Positions 11,424 to 24,568 of a stretch of DNA of 61,420 nt are shown here, piece by piece. The notes under the pieces are model-generated. The model was given only the letters and a program-made list of their open reading frames with translations, ran no database searches and was not told the origin of the DNA. The translations under genes were made by a program, and so were the position numbers. How positions within the stretch are numbered: the stretch's first letter is position 1; every line of letters starts with the position of its first letter. This DNA comes from Clostridia bacterium (lineage in GTDB: Bacteria > Bacillota > Clostridia > Oscillospirales > CAG-272), in assembly GCA_017621085.1 (NCBI GenBank), contig JAGATW010000070.1, forward strand, positions 1 to 61,420. Direction: 5' to 3'.

Positions 11424-14234
11424 GTGAAGCAAGTAGAAAAGCAATATAGGTGCGTACCATTTTGGTCTTGGAATGATAAATTAAACAAGGACGAGCTTGT
11501 AAAGCAGGTTGAGTGGATGAACGAAAACGGCGTGGGTGGATTTTTCATGCACGCACGTGGTGGACTTAAAACCGAATACCTTGGAAAAGAATGGTTTGAG
11601 TGTATTGAGGCTTGCGCTAAGCGTGCCAAGGAGCTGGGCATGGAAGCCTATGCCTATGACGAAAACGGTTGGCCAAGTGGCTTTGTTGGCGGTAAGCTTC
11701 TTGAGGACATTGAAAATCACGACAGATACTTAACATATTCATATGGTAAGTATGATAAAAATGCACTTGCTTCCTATGATATTAGCACAAGTGCCTTAAA
11801 AAAGGCAAGAAAGGGAGATACAAATTGCCTTAATGTATATGAGCATTATTCAACATCAACGGCGGACATATTAAACCCTGAGGTTGTGGATAAGTTTATT
11901 GAAATGACCCACGAGGAATACAGAAAAAGAGACAAATATGACCTAAAGGGCTTTTTTACCGATGAGCCACAGTATTTCCGTTGGGACACTCCATATACAA
12001 AAATGCTCCCCATCTACTTTAAGGAAAAATACGGAGAGGACATTTTAAAGGGCTTAGGACTTTTATTTGTGGAAAAGCGTGGTTATCGTGATTTTAGGTA
12101 TAAGTATTGGAAAGCATTACAGGAATTAATGCTTGAAAGCTTTGCGAAAAAAATTTACGATTGGTGCGAAAAATATGGCTACAAGCTAACAGGACACTAT
12201 ATTGAGGAAAACTGCCTTGCAGGGCAAATGAATTGCTGTGGTGGAATTATGCCATTTTATGAGTATGAGCATATTCCGGGCATTGACTACCTTGGCAGAG
12301 GCTTAGATGATGAGCTTGCTCCTAAGCAGGTATCAAGTGTAGCCTGTCAGCTTGGCAAAAAGCAGGTGCTAACCGAAACCTTTGCTGCCTGTGGCTGGAA
12401 TATTTCCCCCATAGATTTAAAAAAGATAGCCGAGCTGCAATATGTGGCAGGAGTTAATTTAATGTGTCAGCATCTTTTGCCATATAAAGAGGCAGGACAA
12501 AGAAAAAGAGATTACCCGGCCCATTTTTCAAGCATAAACCCTTGGGTAAAAGAGGGCTTTACTACATTTAACGACTATTTTTCATATCTTGGCAAACTTA
12601 TTGCAAATAGCGAGGAAATTGTAAATGTAGGCGTATTACAGCCAATAAGAAGTGCATATTTTGATTATAAGCCTACATCAAGAGAGCCATATAACGGAAT
12701 AGAGCCACTTGAAATGGATTTAAAGCGCACTATTCGCACCCTAACCTATTATGGCATAGGACATCATTTTATTGATGAAACTATTTTGGCAAGGCACGGA
12801 TATGTTGAGGGTAAGCAATTAATTGTTGGCAAGTGTAAATACGACTATATTGTTTTGCCATCAATGTACACAATGGATAAAGCCACCTGTGAAATTTTAA
12901 ATGAGTACATATCAAACGGTGGCAAGGTGCTGCTTGACGGCAAAAAGCCACAGTACTTAGAGGGTAAAAGACATACTCACAGCTACTTAAAAACAAACAC
13001 AGGGTGGGGTGAAATTATAAAAGCTCAGCCACACAGGATAAAAAATAACAAGGATGTTCGTATGTCATACAGACGTGACGAAAATGGCAGAGAATTTATA
13101 TATGCTGTAAATCTAGGTAAGGAAATAACAGTTGATTTTACCTTGAAAAATGGTAAATCCTTTGAGAAATACGATATTCTAAATGATAAGAGCGAAATTA
13201 TACCAACCTCTGTTCATTTTGATAATGGTCAGTCATATTTACTTTATGTATCAAATGAAAAGCCAAAGGTAAGAGAAGAAAAGAAAAAGCTAATACTTGA
13301 CTCAAGCTTTAGCTTAGCTGACAAGGTTAATAACTATATGACCCTTGACACTCTTTCCTATTCCACAAATGGCAAGGACTACTCAGAAAAAAGATACCAT
13401 ATGTGCGCCCTTGACGAGCTTTTAAAAATGAGATATAAGGGCAGGCTTTACCTAAAATACACAGTAAATATAAACACTCCCCCTGCAAAATGCTTGCTTT
13501 TAGCCGAGGAAATGGGTATAATAAGCATAAGCGTAAATGGTAAGAGTGTAAACAAAGAGGGCATCTCTCCCTTAGAGCTTGCAAGTGAGTGCTACAACGT
13601 AGCAAATGCCTTAAATCAGGGCGAAAACGAAATAATTATAGAAACCGACTACTATCAGGGTGAAAATGTTTATTATGCTTTGTTTGGTGAAAATGTAACA
13701 GAAAGCATTAAAAACTGCTTAGCCTATGATACTGACATTGAGCCTATATATCTATATGGCGATTTTGGTGTTTACGGTGAATTTGAAAATGGCAAAAATG
13801 ACTTTATACTCTTAGGGGATAATTTCTATATTGATAAGCAAAAAAGTGAAATTACATCTCTTGAAAGTGACGGCTATCCATTCCTTTCAGGACAGGTGCG
13901 CCTAAAGAAAAAAATTAATTTAAGCGACACAGGGTACGTTCTTTACATTGAAAAAAGCTTCCATATGGCAGAAATTTATGTAAACGGACAAGGGGCTGGA
14001 AATATGATGCTTGAAAGAAGCCTTGATATTTCTAACCTTTTAAGCGTAGGAGAAAACGAAATAGAGATTATACTAACTCTTGGAAACCGAAACCTGTTAG
14101 GTCCATTCCACACAAATGAAGAAGAGCCATACTTTGTAGGGCCCGATACCTTTGAGCGCTTTGGAAGCTGGGAAAATGGCAAGAGCAGATATTATAATCC
14201 AAAATATGCCCTTGTTAAAGCGTTGCCATTCTAA
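11424..14234 (+). CDS. GH106-like glycoside hydrolase (alpha-L-rhamnosidase superfamily)
   Basis: This 936-residue protein has no signal peptide and should act in the cytoplasm. It opens with RCVPFWSWNDKL and GGFFMHARGGL, followed by YAYDENGWPSGF, a pattern I associate with GH106-related hydrolases. A barrel with LTGHYIEEN and LTETFAACGW follows, then a Rossmann-like domain (about 400-530) and two beta-sandwich carbohydrate-binding domains of the GH2 sugar-binding type in the last 300 residues. The GTG start follows a GGGGG ribosome binding site. It precedes a glycosyltransferase and UDP-galactopyranose mutase. Family assignment is moderate; a rhamnose or uronate glycoside is the likely target. 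Confidence 0.65.
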   Translation: MKQVEKQYRCVPFWSWNDKLNKDELVKQVEWMNENGVGGFFMHARGGLKTEYLGKEWFECIEACAKRAKELGMEAYAYDENGWPSGFVGGKLLEDIENHDRYLTYSYGKYDKNALASYDISTSALKKARKGDTNCLNVYEHYSTSTADILNPEVVDKFIEMTHEEYRKRDKYDLKGFFTDEPQYFRWDTPYTKMLPIYFKEKYGEDILKGLGLLFVEKRGYRDFRYKYWKALQELMLESFAKKIYDWCEKYGYKLTGHYIEENCLAGQMNCCGGIMPFYEYEHIPGIDYLGRGLDDELAPKQVSSVACQLGKKQVLTETFAACGWNISPIDLKKIAELQYVAGVNLMCQHLLPYKEAGQRKRDYPAHFSSINPWVKEGFTTFNDYFSYLGKLIANSEEIVNVGVLQPIRSAYFDYKPTSREPYNGIEPLEMDLKRTIRTLTYYGIGHHFIDETILARHGYVEGKQLIVGKCKYDYIVLPSMYTMDKATCEILNEYISNGGKVLLDGKKPQYLEGKRHTHSYLKTNTGWGEIIKAQPHRIKNNKDVRMSYRRDENGREFIYAVNLGKEITVDFTLKNGKSFEKYDILNDKSEIIPTSVHFDNGQSYLLYVSNEKPKVREEKKKLILDSSFSLADKVNNYMTLDTLSYSTNGKDYSEKRYHMCALDELLKMRYKGRLYLKYTVNINTPPAKCLLLAEEMGIISISVNGKSVNKEGISPLELASECYNVANALNQGENEIIIETDYYQGENVYYALFGENVTESIKNCLAYDTDIEPIYLYGDFGVYGEFENGKNDFILLGDNFYIDKQKSEITSLESDGYPFLSGQVRLKKKINLSDTGYVLYIEKSFHMAEIYVNGQGAGNMMLERSLDISNLLSVGENEIEIILTLGNRNLLGPFHTNEEEPYFVGPDTFERFGSWENGKSRYYNPKYALVKALPF

Positions 14235-14252
14235 AAACTAAAGGAGATAAAA

Positions 14253-15377
14253 ATGGTAAAGGTAAGTGTTGTTGTTCCTGTATATAACACAGAAAAATAT
14301 TTAAAAAAGTGCCTTGACAGCCTGCTTATGCAAACCCTAAAGGAAATAGAGGTAATTTGCGTAAATGATGGCTCACAGGACTCCTCTCTTAGCATTATTA
14401 TGGAGTATGTGGAGCGTGACAAACGCTTTAAGGTGATAGATAAGGCTAATAGTGGCTATGGAGCGACAATGAACCAAGGCTTTGATATATCAAGTGGTGA
14501 ATATGTGGGAATTTTGGAAAGCGATGACTTTTTTGAGCCCACTATGCTTGAAGAACTGTATTTTAACGCTAAAAATGACGACCTTGATGTATGTAAGGCA
14601 GGCTTTAATTATTACTACTCTCAAGGCAAAAGCACAAGTGCAGTTATGCCACAGAGCCTTATAGATAAAGGAATATTTTGCCCAACTACTGATTTTAAAT
14701 CAGCTAAGGAGCAGTTAGCACTATTTAAAATTAAGCCAACAATTTGGTCTGCAATTTATAAAAGAGAATTTATAAAGGCAAATAACATTCGCTTTACGGA
14801 AACAAGCGGTGCATCCTTTCAGGACACAGCCTTTAATTTTAAGGTGTGGGCAAGTGCTAAGCGTGTAAGACTTATAAAGCCTTGTCTTATTAATTACAGA
14901 CAGGACAATGAGGAATCATCAGTACATTCAAGTAGTAAAGCATTCTTTATTTGTAAGGAATATGCAGAAATAGAGAGATTTTTAAGTAATCACCCAAACA
15001 AAAGCACCTTGGAGTCAATTAAAAACGCACTAAAATACGAGGCTTATTTGTGGAATTACGAAAGACTTGATAGTGAGGCTTCAAAGGAATTTATTTTAGT
15101 TGCTTCAAATGAGCTAAAATCAGATATGGACCGAGGAAATTGCCAAAAAAAGCTATATTCTTGGGACAAATGGAATCAGCTTTGCCAAATTATAAATAAT
15201 CCGAAAAAGTTTCATAATTTACGTCAAGAGGAAAAGAAATTTGAAGCAAGTCTTGGCGAAAGTGAAAGACAAGGTGGCAAATTAAAAACAATTAAAGCTT
15301 CAATTAAGAAAAATGGTGTAGGACGCACAATAAAAGCGCTTACAATGAAATTAAAAAGGAAGCTGCAAAGAAAATAA
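14253..15377 (+). CDS. Family 2 glycosyltransferase
   Basis: The 374-residue soluble transferase begins VSVVVPVYNTEKYLKKCL and has the ICVNDGSQDSS nucleotide-binding loop and ESDDFFEP metal motif of GT-A family 2 enzymes. The last 120 residues are basic and helical, and could bind the membrane surface. It sits 18 bases after the glycosidase gene and 15 before UDP-galactopyranose mutase, so transfer of galactofuranose is a reasonable but unproven guess. Confidence 0.85.
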   Translation: MVKVSVVVPVYNTEKYLKKCLDSLLMQTLKEIEVICVNDGSQDSSLSIIMEYVERDKRFKVIDKANSGYGATMNQGFDISSGEYVGILESDDFFEPTMLEELYFNAKNDDLDVCKAGFNYYYSQGKSTSAVMPQSLIDKGIFCPTTDFKSAKEQLALFKIKPTIWSAIYKREFIKANNIRFTETSGASFQDTAFNFKVWASAKRVRLIKPCLINYRQDNEESSVHSSSKAFFICKEYAEIERFLSNHPNKSTLESIKNALKYEAYLWNYERLDSEASKEFILVASNELKSDMDRGNCQKKLYSWDKWNQLCQIINNPKKFHNLRQEEKKFEASLGESERQGGKLKTIKASIKKNGVGRTIKALTMKLKRKLQRK

Positions 15378-15392
15378 AAGGGAGGGTAAGGG

Positions 15393-16496
15393 ATGAAAAG
15401 GTATGATTATCTAATAGTCGGCGCAGGACTTTTCGGCTCCGTTTTTGCCTATGAGGCAAGGAAAAGGGGTAAGCGCTGCTTAGTGATAGATAAAAGAAGC
15501 CATATAGGTGGAAATGCTTATTGCGAAAAAATTGAAGATATAAATGTACACAAATATGGCGCGCATATTTTTCATACCTCAAATAAAGAAATTTGGGACT
15601 ATGTAAATTCCCTTGCCAAATTTAATGATTTTATTAATTCCCCCTTGGCAGTTTATAAATCGGAAGCCTATAATCTTCCCTTTAATATGTACACCTTTAG
15701 TAAAATGTGGGGAATAACAACTCCCGCACAGGCAAAGGAAATAATAGAAAAGCAAGTAAAGGAGGCAGGAATTAAAAGCCCAAATAATCTTGAAGAAAAG
15801 GCGCTTTCCTTAGTTGGCAGAGATATTTATGAAAAGCTAATTAAGGGCTATACAAAAAAGCAATGGCAAAGGGAATGTAACACCTTACCCCCTTCAATTA
15901 TAGAAAGAATACCTATTAGATTTACCTATGATAATAACTATTTTAACGATACCTATCAAGGCATACCAATAGGTGGCTACAATGTAATAATTGAAAAGCT
16001 TTTAAGTGGCACAGAGGTAAGACTGAATACTGACTATTTTGACCTCGAGGAAAGAGAGGAAATAGCAGAAAAAACAATATACACAGGACCGATTGATAGG
16101 TTTTTTGACTATCAATTAGGCACACTTGAATACCGTAGCATAAGGCTTGAAACTAAGGTTATTGATTGCTGTGACTATCAAGGAAACGCAGTTATAAATT
16201 ATTGTGATGAGGAAATTCCATACACAAGAGTAATAGAGCATAAGCATTTTGAATTTGGCAAGCAGCCAAAAACAGTTGTTTCCTGGGAGTATTCAAGAGA
16301 ATGGACCAAAAACGACGAGCCCTTTTACCCAATAAATGACGAAAAAAATAACGCCCTATACCAAAAATATAAGGAGCTTGCAAGCACAAAGCCCAATATA
16401 ATTTTCGGTGGCAGACTGGGAGAGTATAAATACTACGATATGGACAAGGTAATAGAAAAAGCCCTTGACCTTGCCAAAAAAGAGATTTATAATTAA
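15393..16496 (+). CDS. glf: UDP-galactopyranose mutase
   Basis: The 367-residue flavoenzyme interconverts UDP-galactopyranose and UDP-galactofuranose, the donor for galactofuranose-containing surface glycans. The FAD-binding start YLIVGAGLFGSVFA is followed by IGGNAYCE and HKYGAHIFHTSN. Later motifs include GYTKKQWQRE, RIPIRFTYDNNYFND and YQGIPIGGYN, and FGGRLGEYKYYDMD near the end contacts the substrate and cofactor. Length and motifs fit the bacterial family. It ends the operon at a strong bidirectional hairpin. Confidence 0.95.
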   Translation: MKRYDYLIVGAGLFGSVFAYEARKRGKRCLVIDKRSHIGGNAYCEKIEDINVHKYGAHIFHTSNKEIWDYVNSLAKFNDFINSPLAVYKSEAYNLPFNMYTFSKMWGITTPAQAKEIIEKQVKEAGIKSPNNLEEKALSLVGRDIYEKLIKGYTKKQWQRECNTLPPSIIERIPIRFTYDNNYFNDTYQGIPIGGYNVIIEKLLSGTEVRLNTDYFDLEEREEIAEKTIYTGPIDRFFDYQLGTLEYRSIRLETKVIDCCDYQGNAVINYCDEEIPYTRVIEHKHFEFGKQPKTVVSWEYSREWTKNDEPFYPINDEKNNALYQKYKELASTKPNIIFGGRLGEYKYYDMDKVIEKALDLAKKEIYN

Positions 16497-16504
16497 AACA
16501 ATTA

Positions 16505-16538
16505 AAAATCCCCTGATAGATTGCTATCAGGGGATTTT
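16505..16538. terminator. Bidirectional terminator
   Basis: A perfect 14-bp stem (16505-16518 with 16525-16538) with A and T tracts on both arms separates glf from the convergent membrane-protein gene. Confidence 0.85.
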
Positions 16539-16579
16539 GACGTTAATATAGGAGCTTTTGTTTATCTTATATTATTCAA

Positions 16580-17920
16580 TTATTTCTTTGTTCTTTTTGC
16601 TATACAAGCTACAAGCGTGGAAAAATAGCAAAGCACGATTATTTCCACAATAAAATGGTAGATGTTGACTTGTAAGGTATCTATTTGTGTGCGTAAAAAC
16701 AACTCCACACCAACAAAAATGGCAAAAGCACCTATCACAAGGCGATGTGCCTTGTTAATGAGCTTATCCTTTACAAGTGCAAAAATAATAAGCACAAAGC
16801 CTACCATATTAGCAAGAGCTAAAGCATCTCCAATGAACACATTTGCAAAAGAGAAAAGCTGATTTATTATATATGCATCTTGACTGATTATTTCAGGCAT
16901 AAATACAAATATCAAGCTACTAAGAATTTGACCAATAAATATGGATAAAGCCTCGCTTAAAAGTATAGTGGTACAACCGGCATTAAGAAGCTTATTTTTG
17001 TGCAATCTTTGATATTCATAACCAAAATAGGTAAGAAAAATTAAAAGTGTCATTTTTATATAAATATCAAAGTTAGACAATATTGAAACAAGCTGTGTAG
17101 CGCTTGTCTGTGATATAGGCAGACTGTCTATAAATATGACGCATGCAGTATATACTGCATAAATAAAAATTGTGATAAGCAAGGAGATAATAGTGGACTT
17201 GGAAATAGAATTTTCACAATCATAGCTACATTTTTCAAGGAATGAGTAGAGTAGATATAGCAAAGAAAGCTCTATGAAGGAAACGAAAAAATATACTAAT
17301 ATTTCTAAAATGATTTTTAATATAATTGTCGAGCTAAGGCTTTTTACTATTAATAGCCCCAAAAAAGAAATTATAGCTATGCCAAGAAAAGCTAAAGCAT
17401 AAAGAGAAAGCTTTCCTATATTCTTAAAAACATTTTTATAATAGTGTTCGCTATCCATAATAGAATAGTTAAAATAAATATCGTTTCTTCTAAAGCTGAA
17501 AACAACATATACCCCTACAATAAAGAGCAGAACAAATATAATCCCACCAAAGCCCTGGTCAGCAAAATTATATGACTTGCCAATATATAAAGCAATAGGC
17601 ATAACAAAGGCAAATACACCTAAGATTAATTTTATCAAAATTGATGAAGCCTTGTTATAAAAAGCATTTTTTATTAAGTCAGCTCGCTCGTCCTTTACGC
17701 TAAGCTTACTTATTATAAAGCCAATAGCTAAAACTATTAATGTGCTTACGCAAATGGCAATTTCCAAGCTAACAAACCAAAAATGCTTGTTGCCATGAGA
17801 GTTTCTAATTATATTTGCAAGGTGAATAATACCAAGCATCAAGGAAATAACAAAGGACATAAAAATAGCATTACGTGATATTTTCCCCTTTACATTTTCA
17901 ATTCTTTCGTCGTAAAACAT
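16580..17920 (-). CDS. Polytopic membrane protein paired with an XRE regulator
   Basis: This 446-residue protein has about ten to twelve hydrophobic segments and short charged loops, and no enzymatic motif that I recognise. The start at 17920 follows GGAGGGAATAAT and lies two bases after the stop of the upstream XRE gene. A longer in-frame reading would overlap that gene by about 95 bases. Small XRE repressor plus polytopic membrane protein pairs are common in Firmicutes, often as sensory or export modules; the function here is unknown. Confidence 0.8.
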   Translation of the reverse strand: MFYDERIENVKGKISRNAIFMSFVISLMLGIIHLANIIRNSHGNKHFWFVSLEIAICVSTLIVLAIGFIISKLSVKDERADLIKNAFYNKASSILIKLILGVFAFVMPIALYIGKSYNFADQGFGGIIFVLLFIVGVYVVFSFRRNDIYFNYSIMDSEHYYKNVFKNIGKLSLYALAFLGIAIISFLGLLIVKSLSSTIILKIILEILVYFFVSFIELSLLYLLYSFLEKCSYDCENSISKSTIISLLITIFIYAVYTACVIFIDSLPISQTSATQLVSILSNFDIYIKMTLLIFLTYFGYEYQRLHKNKLLNAGCTTILLSEALSIFIGQILSSLIFVFMPEIISQDAYIINQLFSFANVFIGDALALANMVGFVLIIFALVKDKLINKAHRLVIGAFAIFVGVELFLRTQIDTLQVNIYHFIVEIIVLCYFSTLVACIAKRTKK

Positions 17921-17921
17921 A

Positions 17922-18113
17922 TTATTCCCTCCAAAACAAATCATTAAGCGTAACACCCAATTCCTTACATATGCGAATACATAATTCCACCGTGGGATTA
18001 TAGCCACCGTTTTCAATCATATTAATTGTTTGTCTTGAAACTCCGATTTTTTTTGCAAGCTCCGTTTGTGACAAGTTTTTTAAAGCACGCGCTTGCTTCA
18101 TCTTTTCGTTCAT
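17922..18113 (-). CDS. Small XRE-family transcriptional regulator
   Basis: This 63-residue protein is almost entirely a helix-turn-helix domain: LSQTELAKKIGVSRQTINMIE holds the two DNA-binding helices, followed by GYNPTVELCIRICKELGV. It is the Cro/YozG-like minimal XRE type. An AGGAGG ribosome binding site overlaps the edge of a TGTCAA palindrome. Two such palindromes flank its own -10 box, so autorepression is likely. It is co-transcribed with the downstream membrane protein. Confidence 0.93.
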   Translation of the reverse strand: MNEKMKQARALKNLSQTELAKKIGVSRQTINMIENGGYNPTVELCIRICKELGVTLNDLFWRE

Positions 18114-18123
18114 TTTGACCTCC

Positions 18124-18188
18124 TGTCAAATATATTTGACAAATTGATTATATCACAGACATCATAAATTGTCAAGTATATTTGACAA
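18124..18188 (-). promoter_or_regulatory. Promoter with two palindromic operators for the XRE operon
   Basis: On the minus strand, TTGACA (18175-18170), a 17-base spacer and TATAAT (18152-18147) form a consensus promoter. A perfect 18-bp palindrome TGTCAAATATATTTGACA (18124-18141) lies between the -10 box and the ribosome binding site, and a second near-perfect copy (18169-18188) contains the -35 box. Centres are 46 bp apart, about 4.4 helical turns. Occupancy of both would block polymerase. Confidence 0.85.
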
Positions 18189-18195
18189 TTTCGGT

Positions 18196-18226
18196 AAAAA
18201 AACAGCCTCGCAAACACGAGACTGTT
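18196..18226 (-). terminator. Terminator downstream of the four-helix-bundle gene
   Basis: AACAGCCTCG (18201-18210) pairs with CGAGACTGTT (18217-18226) with one mismatch, and the minus strand continues into five or more T residues. It isolates the four-helix-bundle gene from the XRE promoter. Confidence 0.75.
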
Positions 18227-18247
18227 CTTTTGATATTAATTTTTAGC

Positions 18248-18601
18248 TTACTGTTTTTCCTTTAAGGTTGTAATAGAGGAAACAAGCATTCGGCGGAGAG
18301 TAATAATTTGGTTATTATAGTAAGCAAGCCTTTCATTTGAAAGACGTCCAACCTCAAAAAGAAGAGAAAGCCAAAACTCGCTCTCGTTACATTCTTTGAG
18401 AGCAATTTCAAGCTTAGATATAAAATCCTTTGTTCCCTGCGCATATTGAGCCTCGTGAATATTTGCTCCTACCGAGGTGCCACAACGAATTAATTGATTT
18501 ATTAAAGCGCCTTCTACACCATTGGCTTTTAATTCTCTAAAAAGAAAAACTATATCTTTTGCAAAAACCTTTGATTTTTCTCTTAAAATGCTATCTGCCA
18601 T
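18248..18601 (-). CDS. Four-helix-bundle protein (S23 / Avd-like family)
   Basis: The 117-residue, all-helical protein matches the four-helix-bundle family first seen in 23S rRNA intervening sequences. Family features visible are VFAKDIVFLFREL, LINQLIRCGTSVGANIHEA, DFISKLEIALKECNESEFWL and a C-terminal helix ending in SSITTLKEKQ. The same fold is used by the Avd accessory protein of diversity-generating retroelements. Its start follows AAGGGAG. There is no rRNA nearby, so this is a free-standing copy. The 5' flank holds an array of short hairpins, described separately. Nucleic-acid binding is inferred from the family. Confidence 0.85.
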   Translation of the reverse strand: MADSILREKSKVFAKDIVFLFRELKANGVEGALINQLIRCGTSVGANIHEAQYAQGTKDFISKLEIALKECNESEFWLSLLFEVGRLSNERLAYYNNQIITLRRMLVSSITTLKEKQ

Positions 18602-18625
18602 ATTTGCTCCCTTCTGGTTTCAAAC

Positions 18626-18787
18626 GTGACGTAGTCACTCATAACTACACGAAGTGTATCATAACAATGCGAAGCATTTCATAACATTTTCACAGATACA
18701 AAGATAAGAGTTGCTATAGCAACGTTATGAGTTAGCAAGCTAACGTTATGAATTAAGCGAAGCATTTAGCTTCGCTTAATGTTATGA
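18626..18787. repeat. Array of six short hairpins separated by a TCATAAC heptamer
   Basis: Six palindromes occur in 162 bp: 18626-18638, 18646-18658 and 18666-18678 (each 5-bp stem, 3-base loop), then 18710-18723, 18731-18744 and 18752-18780 (12-bp stem, 5-base loop). Each of the first three is followed at once by TCATAAC (18639, 18659, 18679). Each of the last three is followed by its reverse complement GTTATGA (18724, 18745, 18781). Arm sequences differ between hairpins but pairing is kept. The two halves can therefore also pair with each other. The array lies between the guaA stop and the four-helix-bundle gene. Confidence 0.9.
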
Positions 18788-18836
18788 TATTAATTTTTTG
18801 TGAAAATTCATAGTTGATTTTTGATTGCATCAAAAA

Positions 18837-19832
18837 TCATTCCCACTCAATAGTAGAAATTGGCTTTGGTGAGAGGTCATATGCAACACGGCATACACCA
18901 TCTACTTCCTTTAGAATTCTGTCGGTTACAGTTTTTAAAAGCTCCCAAGGAAGCTCAGGTACAGTTGCGGTCATTGCGTCAACAGAGTTAACAGCACGAA
19001 TGATTACGCACCAGTCGTAAACTCTGTGGTCGTTTTTAACACCAACGGAGCACATATTTGGAATTACAGTAAAGAACTGCCAAATCTTGTCTGTATAGCC
19101 TGCCTTTTCAACCTCTTCACGAAGAATAGCATCACTTTCTCTTACAGCCTCAAGTCTATCTCTTGTAATAGCGCCTGTGCATCTTACACCAAGACCGGGA
19201 CCCGGGAATGGCTGACGATAAACCATAGACTCCGGCAAGCCAAGAGCGATACCTACAACTCTTACCTCGTCCTTATAAAGAAGCTCAAGTGGCTCAACAA
19301 GCTTAAACTTCAAATCCTTTGGAAGTCCACCAACATTGTGGTGAGCCTTGTGACCCTTTTTGCTTTCAATAATGTCAGGATAAATAGTACCCTGAGCTAA
19401 ATATTTAACACCCTTAAGCTTTCTTGCCTCTTCAGCAAAAACCTCAATAAATTCTTTACCGATAATAGAGCGCTTTTCCTCAGGACCGGCTACATTTTTA
19501 AGCTTACCTAAGAAACGGTCAGTTGCATCAATATAAATAAGATTAGCATTAAGCTCCTTTTGGAAAACCTCAATAACGCTTTCACTCTCATTCTTACGCA
19601 TTAAGCCGTGGTTAACGTGAACGCAGTAAAGCTGCTTGCCAACTGCCTTAATAAGAAGTGCAGCCAAAACAGAGGAGTCAACACCACCGGAAAGAGCCAA
19701 AAGAACCTTTTTGTCCCCTACCTGATTACGAATGTTTTCAACCTGTTCGTCAATAAATTTGTTTGCAAGCTCCATAGTGGTAATACGTGGCATATCGTCC
19801 GGACGTACAACCTCGTTTTTCTTTTGAGCCAT
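18837..19832 (-). CDS. guaA: GMP synthetase, ATP pyrophosphatase subunit only
   Basis: The 331-residue protein is the ATP-PPase and dimerisation half of GMP synthetase, which adenylates XMP and replaces AMP with ammonia to form GMP. SGGVDSS (48-54) is the PP-loop; GTIYPDIIES, QPFPGPGLGVR and the C-terminal SPKPISTIEWE are diagnostic. The usual N-terminal class I glutamine amidotransferase domain (about 190 residues) is absent. The gene has its own ribosome binding site and promoter, so it looks intact rather than truncated. A separate amidotransferase subunit elsewhere or direct use of ammonia is implied. A short inverted repeat (18813-18837) overlaps the stop. Confidence 0.93.
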   Translation of the reverse strand: MAQKKNEVVRPDDMPRITTMELANKFIDEQVENIRNQVGDKKVLLALSGGVDSSVLAALLIKAVGKQLYCVHVNHGLMRKNESESVIEVFQKELNANLIYIDATDRFLGKLKNVAGPEEKRSIIGKEFIEVFAEEARKLKGVKYLAQGTIYPDIIESKKGHKAHHNVGGLPKDLKFKLVEPLELLYKDEVRVVGIALGLPESMVYRQPFPGPGLGVRCTGAITRDRLEAVRESDAILREEVEKAGYTDKIWQFFTVIPNMCSVGVKNDHRVYDWCVIIRAVNSVDAMTATVPELPWELLKTVTDRILKEVDGVCRVAYDLSPKPISTIEWE

Positions 19833-19875
19833 AACTAATCCTCCTGTGAATTAATTGTAGAATTTTGATAAAAAA

Positions 19876-19904
19876 AGTATATCACAAAATCTTTTGCAGT
19901 GCAA
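19876..19904 (-). promoter_or_regulatory. Promoter of guaA
   Basis: On the minus strand TTGCAC (19904-19899), 17 bases and TATACT (19881-19876) sit about 40 bases upstream of the guaA start. I see no purine riboswitch in the rest of this 248-base gap, which is mostly A/T runs. Confidence 0.65.
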
Positions 19905-20048
19905 GTGGGTTGAACATACTTTTTTTGAAAAAATTAAAAAAATTTTTATAGCTTTTTTGTGTAAATCTACAATGTTTTAAAAAACAATAAATTTTTGTTG
20001 ATATTTCAACATTTTTGTGGCATAATAAAAGCAACTGCGGTTATGAAT

Positions 20049-20078
20049 AAAATCCCTCTCAAACAAGAGAGGGATTTT
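20049..20078. terminator. Bidirectional terminator after gtrA
   Basis: A perfect 12-bp stem (20049-20060 with 20067-20078) has A and T tracts on both arms. On the minus strand it ends the pepF-gtrB-gtrA transcript. Confidence 0.85.
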
Positions 20079-20080
20079 TG

Positions 20081-20545
20081 CTATTTATTTTTCTTTTTAA
20101 AAATAATAAACTTGCTAAAGAAGTAATTTAGAATTATAACAATTACAGCTAAAATAACCTTAGCAATCAGGTCGCCTGTTAATGTAAAGAAGGATAGGTC
20201 AATTGCAATATTCTTAAATGCAAGGACCTCTACAAAAAGTAACAAGCCGGCTTCCTCAATTAAGAAGCTTAAAACCCTTGCACCTAAAAACTCCAAAAGC
20301 TCACGTGTTATTGTTTTTGCATCAAATGCTTTAACCTCGAAAACAAAAAGCTTGTTTACCACATAGGCAAAAAGTGCCGCTATTACCCACGCAATAAGGT
20401 TGGTAACTAAGTATAATTCCTTGTCTAAAATAAGGTCAAATAAAATATAAGCTACAAAGTTTACAAGGGTAGTTAAAGCGCCAAATATTATATAGAGTAT
20501 AATTTCCTTATGCTTTAGATAAAGTGATTTAATTTTGCTCATCAT
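20081..20545 (-). CDS. gtrA: GtrA-family membrane protein
   Basis: This 154-residue protein has four hydrophobic segments in the GtrA pattern, including YIIFGALTTLVNFVAYILF near residues 16-34 and AKVILAVIVIILNYFFSKF near the end. GtrA proteins are thought to flip or present undecaprenyl-phosphate-linked sugars across the membrane. Its start overlaps the end of the upstream GtrB-like transferase by 17 bases, so the two are translationally coupled partners in transferring a sugar to a surface glycan. Confidence 0.88.
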   Translation of the reverse strand: MMSKIKSLYLKHKEIILYIIFGALTTLVNFVAYILFDLILDKELYLVTNLIAWVIAALFAYVVNKLFVFEVKAFDAKTITRELLEFLGARVLSFLIEEAGLLLFVEVLAFKNIAIDLSFFTLTGDLIAKVILAVIVIILNYFFSKFIIFKKKNK

Positions 20546-21479
20546 TCTTTTCCTTTATCTCAAGCTTGTCCTTTAAAATATACACAGGACGATTTTTTGC
20601 CTGAACATACATTTTAGCAATATATTCACCTAAAACGCCTAAGCAGAACAGCTGAATACCACCTATTAAAAGAACAAGAACAACTATTGTTGCATATCCG
20701 GGCACATCAATACCGAAGGCGAGCTTTTGCACAATTACAAAAATAAGATAAGCAATTGACAAAAGTGAGCTTATAAAGCCAACATAAGTGGACAATTTAA
20801 GTGGTGAGGTAGAAAAGGCAAATATACCCTCGAAAGCATACCTGATAAGCTTTTTAGTCCCCCACTTGCTCTGACCGCTTTCTCTTTTTGCCACCTCATA
20901 TGGAATATACTCAGTATTAAAGCCAACGTAGCTGAAAATTCCCTTAGAAAAGCGATGGAACTCTGTCATTTGCAATATGGCATCAACCATATTTCTTTTC
21001 ATTAAGCGAAAGTCGGACGCACCATTTACAAAGCGAACATCGGAAATCTTATTTATAAATTTGTAAAAGCCTGACTTAATAGCTGACATAAGCTTATTTT
21101 CCTTGCGCTTTTTTTGATACGCAGTTACACAGTCAAGCTCAGGATTAGCATTTAAAACCTCAAGCATTTCAAGGACAACCTGTGGTCTTTGCTGTAAATC
21201 GGCATCTATTAAGCAAACAAGGTCACCGCGAGCGTGAGAAAGCCCTGCATAAATAGCGCTTTCCTTGCCAAAGTTACGGCTAAAACACAAAACCTGTACA
21301 TTTTGTGGGCTTGAAGCGTGTATTTCCTTTAGTCTTTGATAGGTTTTGTCACTACTACCATCGTTTACAAAAACAAATTCATAGCTATCAACCTTGCCCT
21401 CAAAGGCAGAGCAAACCTCATTATAAAATGCGTGAACATTTCCCTCCTCATTATAGCAGGGAACAACTAATGATAACAT
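20529..21479 (-). CDS. GtrB/DPM1-like polyprenyl-phosphate glycosyltransferase
   Basis: The 316-residue family 2 enzyme should load a sugar onto undecaprenyl phosphate. LSLVVPCYNEEGNVHAF, FVFVNDGSSDKT, FSRNFGKESAIYAGL and IDADLQQRPQ are DPM1/GtrB motifs, and two C-terminal membrane helices (about 228-250 and 262-287) complete the bactoprenol glucosyltransferase layout. GGAGG precedes the start. It lies 18 bases downstream of the oligopeptidase gene and overlaps gtrA. Confidence 0.92.
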   Translation of the reverse strand: MLSLVVPCYNEEGNVHAFYNEVCSAFEGKVDSYEFVFVNDGSSDKTYQRLKEIHASSPQNVQVLCFSRNFGKESAIYAGLSHARGDLVCLIDADLQQRPQVVLEMLEVLNANPELDCVTAYQKKRKENKLMSAIKSGFYKFINKISDVRFVNGASDFRLMKRNMVDAILQMTEFHRFSKGIFSYVGFNTEYIPYEVAKRESGQSKWGTKKLIRYAFEGIFAFSTSPLKLSTYVGFISSLLSIAYLIFVIVQKLAFGIDVPGYATIVVLVLLIGGIQLFCLGVLGEYIAKMYVQAKNRPVYILKDKLEIKEKNDEQN

Positions 21480-21497
21480 AAAAATCCTCCAAGCAAA

Positions 21498-23186
21498 TTA
21501 CGCTAATTTTTCAAGCAGCTCCTGACAAAGCTCTGCAACCTCAGAAAGCGCGCCCTTTTCAAATGGTGACTTTAAATCTGCCATTTCAATTAGCTTAGTA
21601 AAGGTATAGTTGCCTGTACGCCTTGCGTGGTCTATATAGGTACGTAAAGCACCATCATAGTCCTTTAAGCTTAGCTGTAAAAACTCAAAGGCAATAACCT
21701 GCGCTAAGCAGTAGTCAATATAGTAAAACGGGCTTTGGAAAATATGGTTTTGATATTGCCATCTTGTACCCTTTTCAAGATACTCTATGCCATTTGCATT
21801 CATATAAGGACGGAACTTGCCTTCAAGCTCAAGCCATAGCTTGTTTCTTTCGGCAGGTGTCATTTCCGGGTTTTCATAAACCACCTCTTGGAAGTAGTCA
21901 ACAATAACTCCGTAAGGAATAAAGGAAAGAGCAGAGAAAAGGTGCTTATATTTGTATTTGTCAGCACTCTTGCCAAAGAACTTATCAATATATTTCCAAG
22001 CGAAGAACTCCATGCTCATAGAGTGGCTCTCGGCTGTTTCCATTCCACCTAAGGAAAGCTCCGGAGTCATTTCATCTCTACCTACAAAGTAAGCAAACGC
22101 GTGACCTGCCTCGTGTGTAATTACATCAACATCGGCAGTTGTACCATTAAAATTCGCAAATATAAATGGCTGACGGTAATCGGGGAAAAATGTCATGTAG
22201 CCACCTGTCCACTTGCCTTCTCTTGGCATAACGTCAAAGGCATCGGACTCAAACATCATATCAATAAACTCACAGGTTTCAGGGCTCATTTCGTGATACA
22301 TTTCCTTGCCTGCCTCTAAAATACCCTTAGCATCAAGAATTGGTACAGGGTCAATTTCAAAGTAAGTGCTATCATCATAAAGCTTCATTTCATCAATTCC
22401 AAGCTTTGCAGCAATCTTCTTTTTTAAATTTGATATAACAGGCACTAAATCACTTAAAACATTTTCACGGAAAACCTTTATAGCCTCTTTGTCATAAGAG
22501 GTTCTTTGCATAAGGTTGTAGCCAAGCTTAACATAGTTATCATAGCCAAGCTTTTTTGCCATTCTGTCCCTTACTTTAACCATTTTGTCATAAATTCCGT
22601 CAAGGAACTCACTATTATCGCCTAAGGACTTACCAAGAGCATTGTAGGCTTCCTTTCTTGTTTCTCTGTCACTGTCCTGCATATATTTACGCAAAGCACC
22701 CAAGGTTAGCTTTTCGCCACGGAAATCATAGGTAAGCTCGGAGACAAACTTGCTATATTCGGTTGTTAGCTTATTTTCCTCCTGCATTTCCTCTAAAATA
22801 CGCTCATCAACGCACTTTAAGGAAAGCTCCAACATTGTAATAACAAGAGGATTTAAGGTCTTTTTTGCTTCCTCTAAATATGGGGAGCTAAGAAAAGCCT
22901 TTGTGAATTTAACGTCGTACATTTGAATTTCGGGAAGAGCAGAGTTATAGTAATCCATTTCCTTTTCATAAAATTCATCACGGCTGTTAAGATTTAGGCG
23001 AGTTGAGGCAAGACGTGCCACCGTGCCAACATGCTCACTTAGCTTATTGTATTCCTCACGTAAGGAAAGAAGCTCGTCACCACTTGCTGCATTTTCAGTC
23101 CTTGTAATTATGTCCTTAATTTTTTCAATAACAGAGTCCTTATCAACTCTTTCATATTTCATTTCACTTATTTTAGTATATTTCAT
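21498..23186 (-). CDS. pepF: M3-family oligoendopeptidase (PepF type)
   Basis: The 562-residue cytoplasmic zinc metallopeptidase cleaves short peptides. HEAGH (His358, Glu359, His362) is the thermolysin-like zinc site, with the third ligand in GMETAESHSMSMEFFAW downstream. The N-terminal helical half and a C-terminal FTKLIEMADLKSPFEKGAL match the M3B subfamily. The start at 23186 follows AAGGAG; an earlier in-frame ATG at 23207 lacks such a site. It heads an operon with the gtrB-like gene and gtrA, which has no obvious functional link. Confidence 0.9.
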   Translation of the reverse strand: MKYTKISEMKYERVDKDSVIEKIKDIITRTENAASGDELLSLREEYNKLSEHVGTVARLASTRLNLNSRDEFYEKEMDYYNSALPEIQMYDVKFTKAFLSSPYLEEAKKTLNPLVITMLELSLKCVDERILEEMQEENKLTTEYSKFVSELTYDFRGEKLTLGALRKYMQDSDRETRKEAYNALGKSLGDNSEFLDGIYDKMVKVRDRMAKKLGYDNYVKLGYNLMQRTSYDKEAIKVFRENVLSDLVPVISNLKKKIAAKLGIDEMKLYDDSTYFEIDPVPILDAKGILEAGKEMYHEMSPETCEFIDMMFESDAFDVMPREGKWTGGYMTFFPDYRQPFIFANFNGTTADVDVITHEAGHAFAYFVGRDEMTPELSLGGMETAESHSMSMEFFAWKYIDKFFGKSADKYKYKHLFSALSFIPYGVIVDYFQEVVYENPEMTPAERNKLWLELEGKFRPYMNANGIEYLEKGTRWQYQNHIFQSPFYYIDYCLAQVIAFEFLQLSLKDYDGALRTYIDHARRTGNYTFTKLIEMADLKSPFEKGALSEVAELCQELLEKLA

Positions 23187-23217
23187 AGTATGCTCCTTAA
23201 AAAACATTTACCTTATA

Positions 23218-23257
23218 ATAATAACATAAAACAAAATAACTGTCAAGTAACTTGACA
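23218..23257. promoter_or_regulatory. Back-to-back divergent promoters with a palindromic core
   Basis: For pepF (minus), TTGACA (23246-23241), 17 bases and TATTAT (23223-23218). For the rightward gene, TTGACA (23252-23257) has TTAAAA (23275-23280) 17 bases on. The two -35 boxes create a perfect 9-bp-arm inverted repeat with one central base (23240-23258). Confidence 0.6.
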
Positions 23258-23314
23258 GGCTAAGTGATTGCGTGTTAAAATATATAAGATATCAAACCTA
23301 AAAAGGAAGAACAA

Positions 23315-23806
23315 ATGTTAAATTTAGTATATATTTTTACGCCACTTATTTTAATACTTGGCGTTGCAGGAATTTTTGCCCTTGCAAAAAAGGAAAATGA
23401 GCGTAAAACAAGTAAGCTAAACAGACGTGATTTTACAATTCGCTCCTCTTACGTATGGGGTGGAATTATGATAACCATTGATGTAATTACATTAGTAATG
23501 CTTGTTTTCGGCAATATCGGTGAGCCATTTCCCATTGGCTTTAATTTAGTGCTTGCCACCGTTTTTGTCATATTCGCCTTTGGAATTTTACAGGTGTTTA
23601 GAGAAAAGGTTAAGGTTAAGGACAATGATATTATATATACCCCTGCAATAGGTCGAACATGCACCTACACCTTTTCACAAATTGAAAAAATTGAAAGCAA
23701 AAAAACAGGCACAGCAGTATTTATAGGTGGCAAAAAAGCCTTTACCTTAGACACTAACGGTGTTGGCACACTACTGTTTATTGAAATTTTTAAAACACGT
23801 AAATAA
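23315..23806 (+). CDS. Small membrane protein with a PH-like C-terminal domain
   Basis: This 163-residue protein has three hydrophobic segments (about residues 3-23, 49-66 and 73-93). They are followed by a soluble beta-rich tail, VKVKDNDIIYTPAIGRTCTYTFSQIEKIES, that resembles the small PH-like domains in other short Firmicutes membrane proteins. No catalytic motif is visible and I do not recognise the family with certainty. It is single-gene and divergent from pepF. Confidence 0.7.
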   Translation: MLNLVYIFTPLILILGVAGIFALAKKENERKTSKLNRRDFTIRSSYVWGGIMITIDVITLVMLVFGNIGEPFPIGFNLVLATVFVIFAFGILQVFREKVKVKDNDIIYTPAIGRTCTYTFSQIEKIESKKTGTAVFIGGKKAFTLDTNGVGTLLFIEIFKTRK

Positions 23807-23839
23807 AATAGCAAGAACAAAATCTGTTCTTGCTATTTT
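23805..23839. terminator. Bidirectional terminator between convergent genes
   Basis: A perfect 15-bp stem (23805-23819 with 23825-23839) with flanking A and T tracts serves both the small membrane protein gene and pflA. Confidence 0.85.
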
Positions 23840-24568
23840 TTACTTTGAATGAATTGCTGAATTAATAACCTCAAGAGCTTTTTGCGCATCGCTCTTTGTT
23901 AGCTGAGGCACACCGTTTAATGGGTATTCAATGCCCAAGCCTTCATACTTAGAAACACCTAAGGTATGGTATGGTAAAACATCAATTTTATCAATACAGC
24001 CGTAATTTTTAATTAATCCACCAAGACGTAAAAGATATTCGTCTTTATAGGTTATATCCGGCACAATAACGTGTCTTATCCACACACGCTTTTCCTTTTT
24101 TTCTAAATATTCAAGGAAATTAAGCACACTTTCGTTTGAAAAGCCTGTTAGCTTCTTATGCTCGTTTTTATCAATATGCTTTATATCAAGCATAATAAGG
24201 TCGCAATATTCCATTAACTTATCAAAGTTAGCTTGATTTTCCTTGTTAAAGGTAATACCGGAGGTATCAAGGGCTGTATGTATGCCCCTTGCTTTAGCAA
24301 GCTTAAAAAGCTCTGTTAAAAAGTCTATTTGCATTAAGGGCTCGCCACCGGTTGCAGTAATGCCACCTGTTTCGTAAAATGGCAAATTTCTTACCATCCT
24401 ATCAATAAGCTCCTGTGCCTCGTACTCCGTGCCTGCGTGAGTTACCCAAGTGTCAGGGTTGTGACAGTAAAGGCAACGCATAGGACAGCCTTGGAAAAAC
24501 ACTACAAAGCGTACTCCGGGGCCATCAACCGTGCCAAAGCTTTCTATGGAGTGAACATACCCCTTCAT
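23840..24568 (-). CDS. pflA: Pyruvate formate-lyase activating enzyme
   Basis: The 242-residue radical-SAM enzyme installs the glycyl radical on PflB. GCPMRCLYCHNPDTW holds the CxxxCxxC cluster ligands close to the N terminus, preceded by SFGTVDGPGVRFVVFFQ. GGITATGGEPLMQ, DTSGI and LMLDIKHIDKNEHKKLTG are further family motifs. It starts one base after the pflB stop (TGATATG) without a clear Shine-Dalgarno, so translation is coupled to pflB. A longer reading to 24658 would run inside pflB. Confidence 0.95.
   Translation of the reverse strand: MKGYVHSIESFGTVDGPGVRFVVFFQGCPMRCLYCHNPDTWVTHAGTEYEAQELIDRMVRNLPFYETGGITATGGEPLMQIDFLTELFKLAKARGIHTALDTSGITFNKENQANFDKLMEYCDLIMLDIKHIDKNEHKKLTGFSNESVLNFLEYLEKKEKRVWIRHVIVPDITYKDEYLLRLGGLIKNYGCIDKIDVLPYHTLGVSKYEGLGIEYPLNGVPQLTKSDAQKALEVINSAIHSK

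Follow-up and report, generated by a model that had tools for sequence, protein, structure and literature searches.

The locus behind guaA

The window analysed here, that is the whole stretch of 61,420 nucleotides, carries a gene for a small four-helix-bundle (FHB) protein between guaA and a small HTH ORF (XRE-like, by reading). On the 5' side of the FHB gene lies an array of short hairpins, ordered on the plus strand at 18626-18787 as three hairpins each followed by TCATAAC, a core of 24 nt, and three hairpins each followed by GTTATGA, with 24 nt between the last hairpin and the start codon. The features of the locus are the following, with G numbers denoting the genomes and L numbers the loci used for comparison.

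18228..18244, minus strand: degenerate 17-nt copy of the left-terminal region in direct orientation, directly behind the FHB stop codon
18248..18601, minus strand: FHB gene (S23/IVP, Avd-fold), 117 aa, N-terminus MADSILREKSK with R as residue 7
18626..18787, minus strand: mirrored mini-hairpin array, six hairpins with three TCATAAC and three GTTATGA spacers (from sequence, shuffles and folding)
18626..18638, no strand: hairpin GTGAC-GTA-GTCAC, read from the sequence
18646..18658, no strand: hairpin TACAC-GAA-GTGTA, read from the sequence
18666..18678, no strand: hairpin AATGC-GAA-GCATT, read from the sequence
18686..18709, minus strand: core, with the segment T' at 18686-18694 complementary to the left terminus T (by reading)
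18710..18723, no strand: hairpin GTTGCT-AT-AGCAAC, T-A changed to C-G on both sides in G002
18731..18744, no strand: hairpin GTTAGC-AA-GCTAAC, T-A changed to C-G on both sides in G019 and G002
18752..18780, no strand: long hairpin with a 12-bp stem, ATTAAGCGAAGC, compensatory changes in G019 and G002
18799..18807, minus strand: left-terminal segment T, ATTTTCACA on the minus strand, its complement repeated in the core (by reading)
18815..18839, minus strand: junction hairpin with perfect 11-bp arms and a loop of 3, the 5' arm holding the guaA stop codon
18837-19832, minus strand: guaA, at whose 3' end the array element starts

In profile searches the FHB product matches PF05635 (E 1.9e-21, 76.7 bits against a curated cut-off of 33.8) and TIGR02436 (E 6.4e-26, 90.7 bits against a cut-off of 24), and its sole sequence match to a solved structure at E 0.1 is PDB 2rld (one entry with five chains, E 1.7e-23). 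The pattern TCATAACN{8,34}TCATAAC is matched four times in the window against 0.03 expected, and none of 100 shuffles reaches four. Both the six short palindromes with their mirrored spacers and the S23/Avd-like gene next to them are exactly as the original prediction had described them.

The sequence behind guaA was compared by reading in the 24 genus genomes with a guaA match. A complete array with an FHB gene is found there in G000, in G018, where the array is duplicated, and in G019, in which the counterpart of the repeat after the FHB stop codon is 39 nt long and near-perfect. Partial or decayed arrays occupy the site in G002, G010, G022 and others, FHB genes of other classes occupy it in G005 and G007, and nothing similar is seen in several of the 24. 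The alignment of the site was kept to three rows and poorly placed rows were left out, among them that of G022, which took in guaA coding sequence. Across G000, G019 and G002, both sides have changed in four hairpin pairs and in one T-T' pair, the latter from A-T to G-C in both G019 and G002, and one loop-closing pair, in the hairpin at 18731..18744, is broken in G002 (by reading).

Arrays with and without a gene

Arrays of this kind are scattered among the 30 genomes of the genus: the TCATAAC unit has 184 matches in 18 of them (17 for a reversed-pattern control) and an ATATCAC unit has 402 in 28 (3 for the control), with a few TCATAAC-pattern matches, such as the sole one in G002, being without a hairpin. 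A search with PF05635 gives 85 matches in 28 of the 30. In the FHB loci examined, the number of FHB genes of a given heptamer class does not exceed about one per genome, while gene-less arrays of that class are many, and near-identical stems occur at many sites within one genome. The source genome, a metagenome assembly of 65% completeness, holds three TCATAAC arrays, 45 ATATCAC matches and one PF05635 match. The region of one solo element (L374:11440-11598) is found 38 times among the matches listed in G012, a few of which are pieces of one place. As an array finder, the core pattern GTGATATN{22,52}ATATCAC was also tried and dropped, with few true arrays among its matches.

A motif search on 60 loci yielded 26 full-length solo TCATAAC elements for alignment, two matches in the wrong orientation being left out. 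In these 26 copies 13 of the 41 consensus pairs are changed on both sides, one of them being U-A in 13, G-C in 8 and A-U in 5, and these copies retain the T-T' complement, CTATGATTGCCC with GGGCAATCATA. The claim that structure rather than sequence is kept in the stems is borne out by these compensatory changes, with pairing retained between relatives. Two observations on solo elements stand apart. Repeats of another type, GGGACCGACGTCCCCGACGGTCC, are interspersed with the arrays at L374:10920-11480; they look dispersed and may be a separate repeat family, and the solo TCATAAC arrays of G003, G009 and G016 (L181, L190, L205) have common stems and flanks that are alike by eye, so an old conserved site seems possible there.

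The position of arrays relative to FHB genes was counted with a strict unit, defined as two copies of one heptamer at a distance of 8-24 nt that enclose at least 4 closing pairs, and sought within 330 nt of the gene. Of the 85 genus matches to PF05635, 70 were examined, and 62 had usable upstream sequence and length. Strict units are present upstream of 29 of 62 FHB genes and downstream of 3 of 61 in the genus, and upstream of 47 of 80 against downstream of 5 of 77 in a named genome collection, while a sample of the order (the 30 best-scoring loci) gives a weak contrast of 8 of 30 against 4 of 30; shuffled sequences contain at most 0.003 per sequence. An enrichment near FHB genes, by which the original prediction was to be judged, is therefore present, rather than arrays that are common everywhere alike. 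The strict count replaced a looser mirrored-spacer score (at least 5), which separated the two sides weakly (79 of 95 upstream, 61 of 99 downstream, 19 of 95 shuffled). By a rough estimate from inputs of our own choosing, chance would place about 0.1 FHB genes beside TCATAAC arrays, and about 4 are seen there.

Array numbers are also higher in genomes where the cognate FHB gene is found (P = 0.018 for TCATAAC, 0.026 for ATATCAC), apart from some array-rich exceptions. Among the FHB genes examined, the cognate gene was not found in the array-rich genomes G000 (45 ATATCAC matches), G002, G027 and G012, nor the TCATAAC-cognate gene in G003 and G015. Most of the array-rich genomes without a cognate gene are incomplete, and 15 of the 85 genus matches to PF05635 lie outside the examined set.

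Heptamer class and protein clade correspond

The heptamer of an array goes with the clade of its FHB protein. On a tree of 98 classified proteins, built with the N-terminal columns left out, the classes require 18 changes against 74.3 when shuffled, none of 200 shuffles being as low; the other 71 of the 169 distinct FHB proteins have no assigned class and are not part of this test. A tree of 93 proteins, on which 'none' was treated as one of the labels, gives 20 changes against 51.4 when shuffled. The correspondence can be read at the N-terminus, where SILRDK proteins go with ATATCAC, SILR(E/N/T)K with TCATAAC, SIMLDK with ATTTAGC, SKLRELSM with ACATCAC, SKLRDLST with ATTTCAC, and both SKLRTQSM and SELRTRAK with ACTTCAC. 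In 80 loci retrieved by protein sequence alone, from Clostridia, Oscillospiraceae and Ruminococcus-like metagenome assemblies (many of them from the ruminant gut, with overlap with the first set possible), 10 of the 14 heptamer classes are found again together with one further class, ATATAAC, and some loci have no class. As array and gene are linked, part of this match is due to common descent.

A natural chimera narrows down the part of the protein that is involved. The proteins at L055:1501-1809 and L047:1501-1806 are identical in all of their 43 C-terminal residues, differ in the N-terminal part (51 of 75) and have arrays with different spacer heptamers, which places the heptamer-linked difference outside the shared C-terminal residues. 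Among 63 proteins with a heptamer ending in C, 50 have R as residue 7 (the others being 11 L, 1 K and 1 gap), and none of 35 with a heptamer ending in T has it, a link that was noticed post hoc and with the heptamer register set by our own reading; the exceptions are the ATTTAGC proteins (L, 11) and the ATATCGC protein (K). Three independent well-supported contrasts are available for this link, of which 2.1 on average point in the same direction and none in the opposite one, and the sign test is not significant.

Taken from the sequences, this match suggests that each version of the heptamer has its own version of the FHB protein and that the protein recognises the heptamer; binding of the array by the protein is what we infer from their co-variation. 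The array and the FHB gene are probably one unit of a family of small, selfish mobile elements resembling REPIN/RAYT, in which a protein of the S23/Avd fold, and not a transposase, would recognise the heptamer. In such a family the FHB protein, whose solved relative 2rld has five chains, would recognise the repeated heptamer, perhaps through its N-terminal part, on an array folded as a single strand with the heptamers stacked into a ladder of 7-bp rungs. Gene-less copies would be served in trans by the protein, in the way proposed for RAYTs and REPINs, with the chemistry left to a DNA- or RNA-processing enzyme of the host. On a separate note, a viral contig (L314, IMGVR_UViG_3300031555_007195) carries an FHB gene of the ATTTCAC class with ten heptamer copies upstream and is a possible vehicle for spread.

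Folding as RNA or DNA

When the minus strand at 18602-18840 is folded, the z score is -9.1 as single-stranded DNA and -7.4 as RNA. Both folds contain a ladder in which GTTATGA and TCATAAC pair level by level and the hairpins protrude at the rungs; the outer halves of the array can thus pair with each other in the predicted folds, as had been supposed. This raises the question of which nucleic acid is at work. A somewhat unlikely, if serious, alternative to a mobile unit read by its heptamer is that the array is transcribed and that the structured RNA is bound by the FHB protein, as a ribonucleoprotein serving regulation, defence, or as a retro-element template in the manner of the Avd/DGR RNA. 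The strength of the RNA fold speaks for it, as does the series U-G/C-G/U-A (14, 9 and 3) at one stem position of the solo elements (columns 179-192), whose alignment leans to G-U mainly through one column. Avd and PF05635 are described as homologous (PMC10053308), and 23S intervening sequence (IVS) elements as excised as RNA (PMC4990558), both of which favour an RNA partner.

In the FHB-linked arrays, on the other hand, hairpins with one mismatch upstream of array-bearing FHB genes have 14 G-U and 18 A-C when read on the FHB strand. Such near-equal numbers would be seen if the arrays worked as DNA or if neither strand were preferred, and they give no hint of an RNA role for this strand. Promoter-like sequences lie mostly after the array where there is room for them, and Rfam has no match anywhere in the window. 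For the FHB-linked arrays we lean towards single-stranded DNA as the working form.

Element ends and their surroundings

Complementarity between the left terminus and the core is frequent among the elements. It reaches at least 8 nt in 49 of 86 loci against 4.4% in mismatched-locus controls and at least 10 nt in 36 of 86 against 0.6%, and at the 8-nt threshold it fails in 37 of the 86. At the left junction, a perfect hairpin with a stem of at least 8 is present in 67 of 94 distinct loci. Of 20 non-tRNA junctions, 12 have this hairpin overlapping the end of the host gene or lying inside it, compared with 8 of 58 ORF ends taken as controls (P = 1.3e-4), a result to be taken as a lead, since the test was post hoc and the search ranges differ between cases and controls; L056, L082, L144 and L310, with a tRNA directly upstream, were left out of it and L276, which has no such tRNA, was counted.

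At six junctions (L246, L244, L113, L098, L101 and L069; L246 and L069 by reading), the 5' arm of the hairpin is host coding sequence or a stop codon and the 3' arm repeats it in inverted form, as though produced by fold-back synthesis. The junction hairpin at L235 and L236 contains GAATGGGAATGA or GAGTGGGAATAA, by reading the final codons of guaA, and no guaA was recognised upstream; either an element that carried its junction hairpin along when it moved or a rearrangement at a later time could account for this. The 3' end of what seems to be one and the same gene, which we take to be an RNA methyltransferase from the motif HVE(S/T)VV (by reading), is occupied by FHB elements of at least three heptamer classes at L079, L095, L292, L302, L066, L098, L101 and L294. 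By eye, 51 genus loci bear an array, and in 26 of them a same-strand tRNA gene lies at most 420 nt upstream of the FHB start.

The FHB genes without an assigned class were searched for tandem repeats with periods of 4 to 12. Repeats above the threshold occur in 11 of 71 upstream regions and in 7 downstream ones, all 18 with period 7, and in none of the shuffles. In several cases the period-7 repeats on one side of the gene are inverted relative to those on the other. Hairpin-less FHB genes enclosed by inverted plain 7-nt tandem arrays were seen at L130, L146, L121, L128, L053 and L061.

Evidence on mobility

An orthologous site measures 742 bp with two arrays in G000 and 104 bp with a plain terminator and no array in G002, a between-species comparison with inexact boundaries in which loss in G002 is possible. 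Whole copies of the array stand behind the FHB gene at L139 and L140. Long direct repeats surround a few FHB elements, of 36 nt at L112 (a terminator copy), 44 nt at L081 and 39 nt at L069, and the direct repeat around the L104 element is a tRNA 3' end; such repeats are absent at most FHB elements examined. A regular target-site duplication was not found at 58 solo loci compared with mismatched-flank controls, with only L232 (a 19-nt repeat) clearly above control and the repeat at L221 lying inside the array. No enzyme is encoded within the element. Several G000 contigs end within a few hundred bases of arrays.

These findings leave room for a spread in which the FHB protein takes no part. The arrays might move by an unrelated mechanism (a HUH transposase, replication slippage or recombination), with the FHB proteins as host binding factors that, for example, protect or insulate gene ends. 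This is consistent with the array-rich genomes in which the cognate gene was not found and with the position of many elements behind tRNAs and gene ends, places at which a hairpin resembling a terminator does no harm or may be of use. It also agrees with the breakpoints of rearrangement between G000 and G012/G002, where breaks in gene order and an inversion coincide with arrays (L375, about 1814-2001 and 16331-16613). Yet the classes recur with an FHB gene beside or around its own array, and they do so at several sites and in more than one family of the order; we regard a spread independent of the protein as unlikely.

Promoters and the leader question

The array could also be the FHB gene's own 5' regulatory leader, one of the two readings that the original prediction offered. 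In the window itself this is possible in view of the short gap of 24 nt between the last hairpin and the start codon. Elsewhere the promoter usually lies between array and gene: of the 56 loci with at least 42 nt of room, 41 have a promoter-like pair in the stretch from the last spacer to the start codon, where 9.5 are expected, which makes a regulatory leader unlikely. Many arrays have no FHB gene, and at L113, L092, L074 and L129 mirrored half-arrays flank the gene. The leader is thereby highly improbable, while the other reading, that of a REP/RAYT-like mobile unit, stands as a description in the light of the gene-less copies, the class-clade match, the covariation and the enrichment. Chance palindromes or an assembly artefact, for which nothing was found other than that the source genome is an incomplete metagenome assembly, are refuted by the shuffle and reversed-pattern controls, the covariation and the recurrence in other assemblies.

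Comparison with known systems

In its population structure the unit resembles REPIN/RAYT (BIME, TnpAREP), which shares with the present arrays short, dispersed palindromic units that are non-autonomous, several sequence classes, and a single-copy gene beside its own repeats; the arrays are likewise dispersed, multi-copy palindromic units in trans. The gene, however, encodes a four-helix bundle and no HUH nuclease, PF05635 being the only match of the adjacent gene, and the element is a string of many hairpins with 7-nt spacers in place of two REP hairpins with a tetranucleotide foot. The foot of a REPIN hairpin is a GTAG or CGTC tag. This tag is absent here, where the hairpins are joined by TCATAAC or other heptamers.

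The IVS of 23S rRNA that bears S23 is described in PMC4990558 as a selfish element that replaces an rRNA tetraloop and whose function, origin and spread are unresolved, with a role in mobility proposed for its ORF in 1993. Both systems have a PF05635 protein, and both would be small selfish elements tied to hairpins. Unlike the IVS, the elements described here lie outside rRNA, behind tRNAs and protein genes, and have heptamer arrays and dispersed gene-less copies, and the window locus is not inside a 23S rRNA helix. Avd of the diversity-generating retroelements (DGR) has a homologous fold (PMC10053308) and is likewise a small protein associated with structured nucleic acid beside its gene. 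Reading of the ORFs at 14000-24000 of the window revealed no reverse transcriptase, template repeat or variable repeat.

MITEs are similar in being short, multi-copy, non-coding elements with inverted repeats, but no parent transposase is seen beside the arrays and there is no consistent target-site duplication. Elements of the IS200/IS605 type have hairpins near their ends and, internally, a segment complementary to one end. Subterminal hairpins and a guide-like T' are also present here, a likeness by analogy only, whereas TnpA is lacking and the complementarity is to the element's own left terminus. Type III toxin-antitoxin systems consist of near-identical tandem RNA repeats, a terminator and an endoribonuclease toxin gene; this was rejected, with stems that all differ, halves that are mirrored and a PF05635 gene. 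CRISPR has identical repeats, non-palindromic hypervariable spacers and cas genes; here the sequences between the heptamers are hairpins and the halves are mirrored. A figure legend in PMC10910872 lists the 23S rRNA IVP among genes linked to CRISPR adaptation modules, which is a different matter.

No description of heptamer-hairpin arrays with PF05635 genes was found among the papers listed in searches of the open-access literature of PubMed Central. The unit of array and FHB gene belongs to none of the systems compared and is, within the open-access literature searched, of a new kind; it is filed under no known system because the gene and the tag of REPIN/RAYT do not fit and the location differs from that of the IVS.

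A wider proposal

A broader scheme can be put forward tentatively. Mobile elements built from 7-nt units, in plain tandem or separated by extruded mini-hairpins, may form a whole class whose recognition factors are FHB proteins of the S23/Avd type; each clade would read its own heptamer N-terminally, with residue 7 reading the last base. Insertion behind gene ends by fold-back would leave an inverted copy of the host end as the junction hairpin, and the 23S IVS and Avd would be specialised branches of this class.

The match between clade and heptamer across many clades makes the function of PF05635 proteins directly testable. If the proposed recognition is true, it would add to bacterial genomes a kind of dispersed repeat that does without a transposase, and with it a small, readable code of nucleic-acid recognition.
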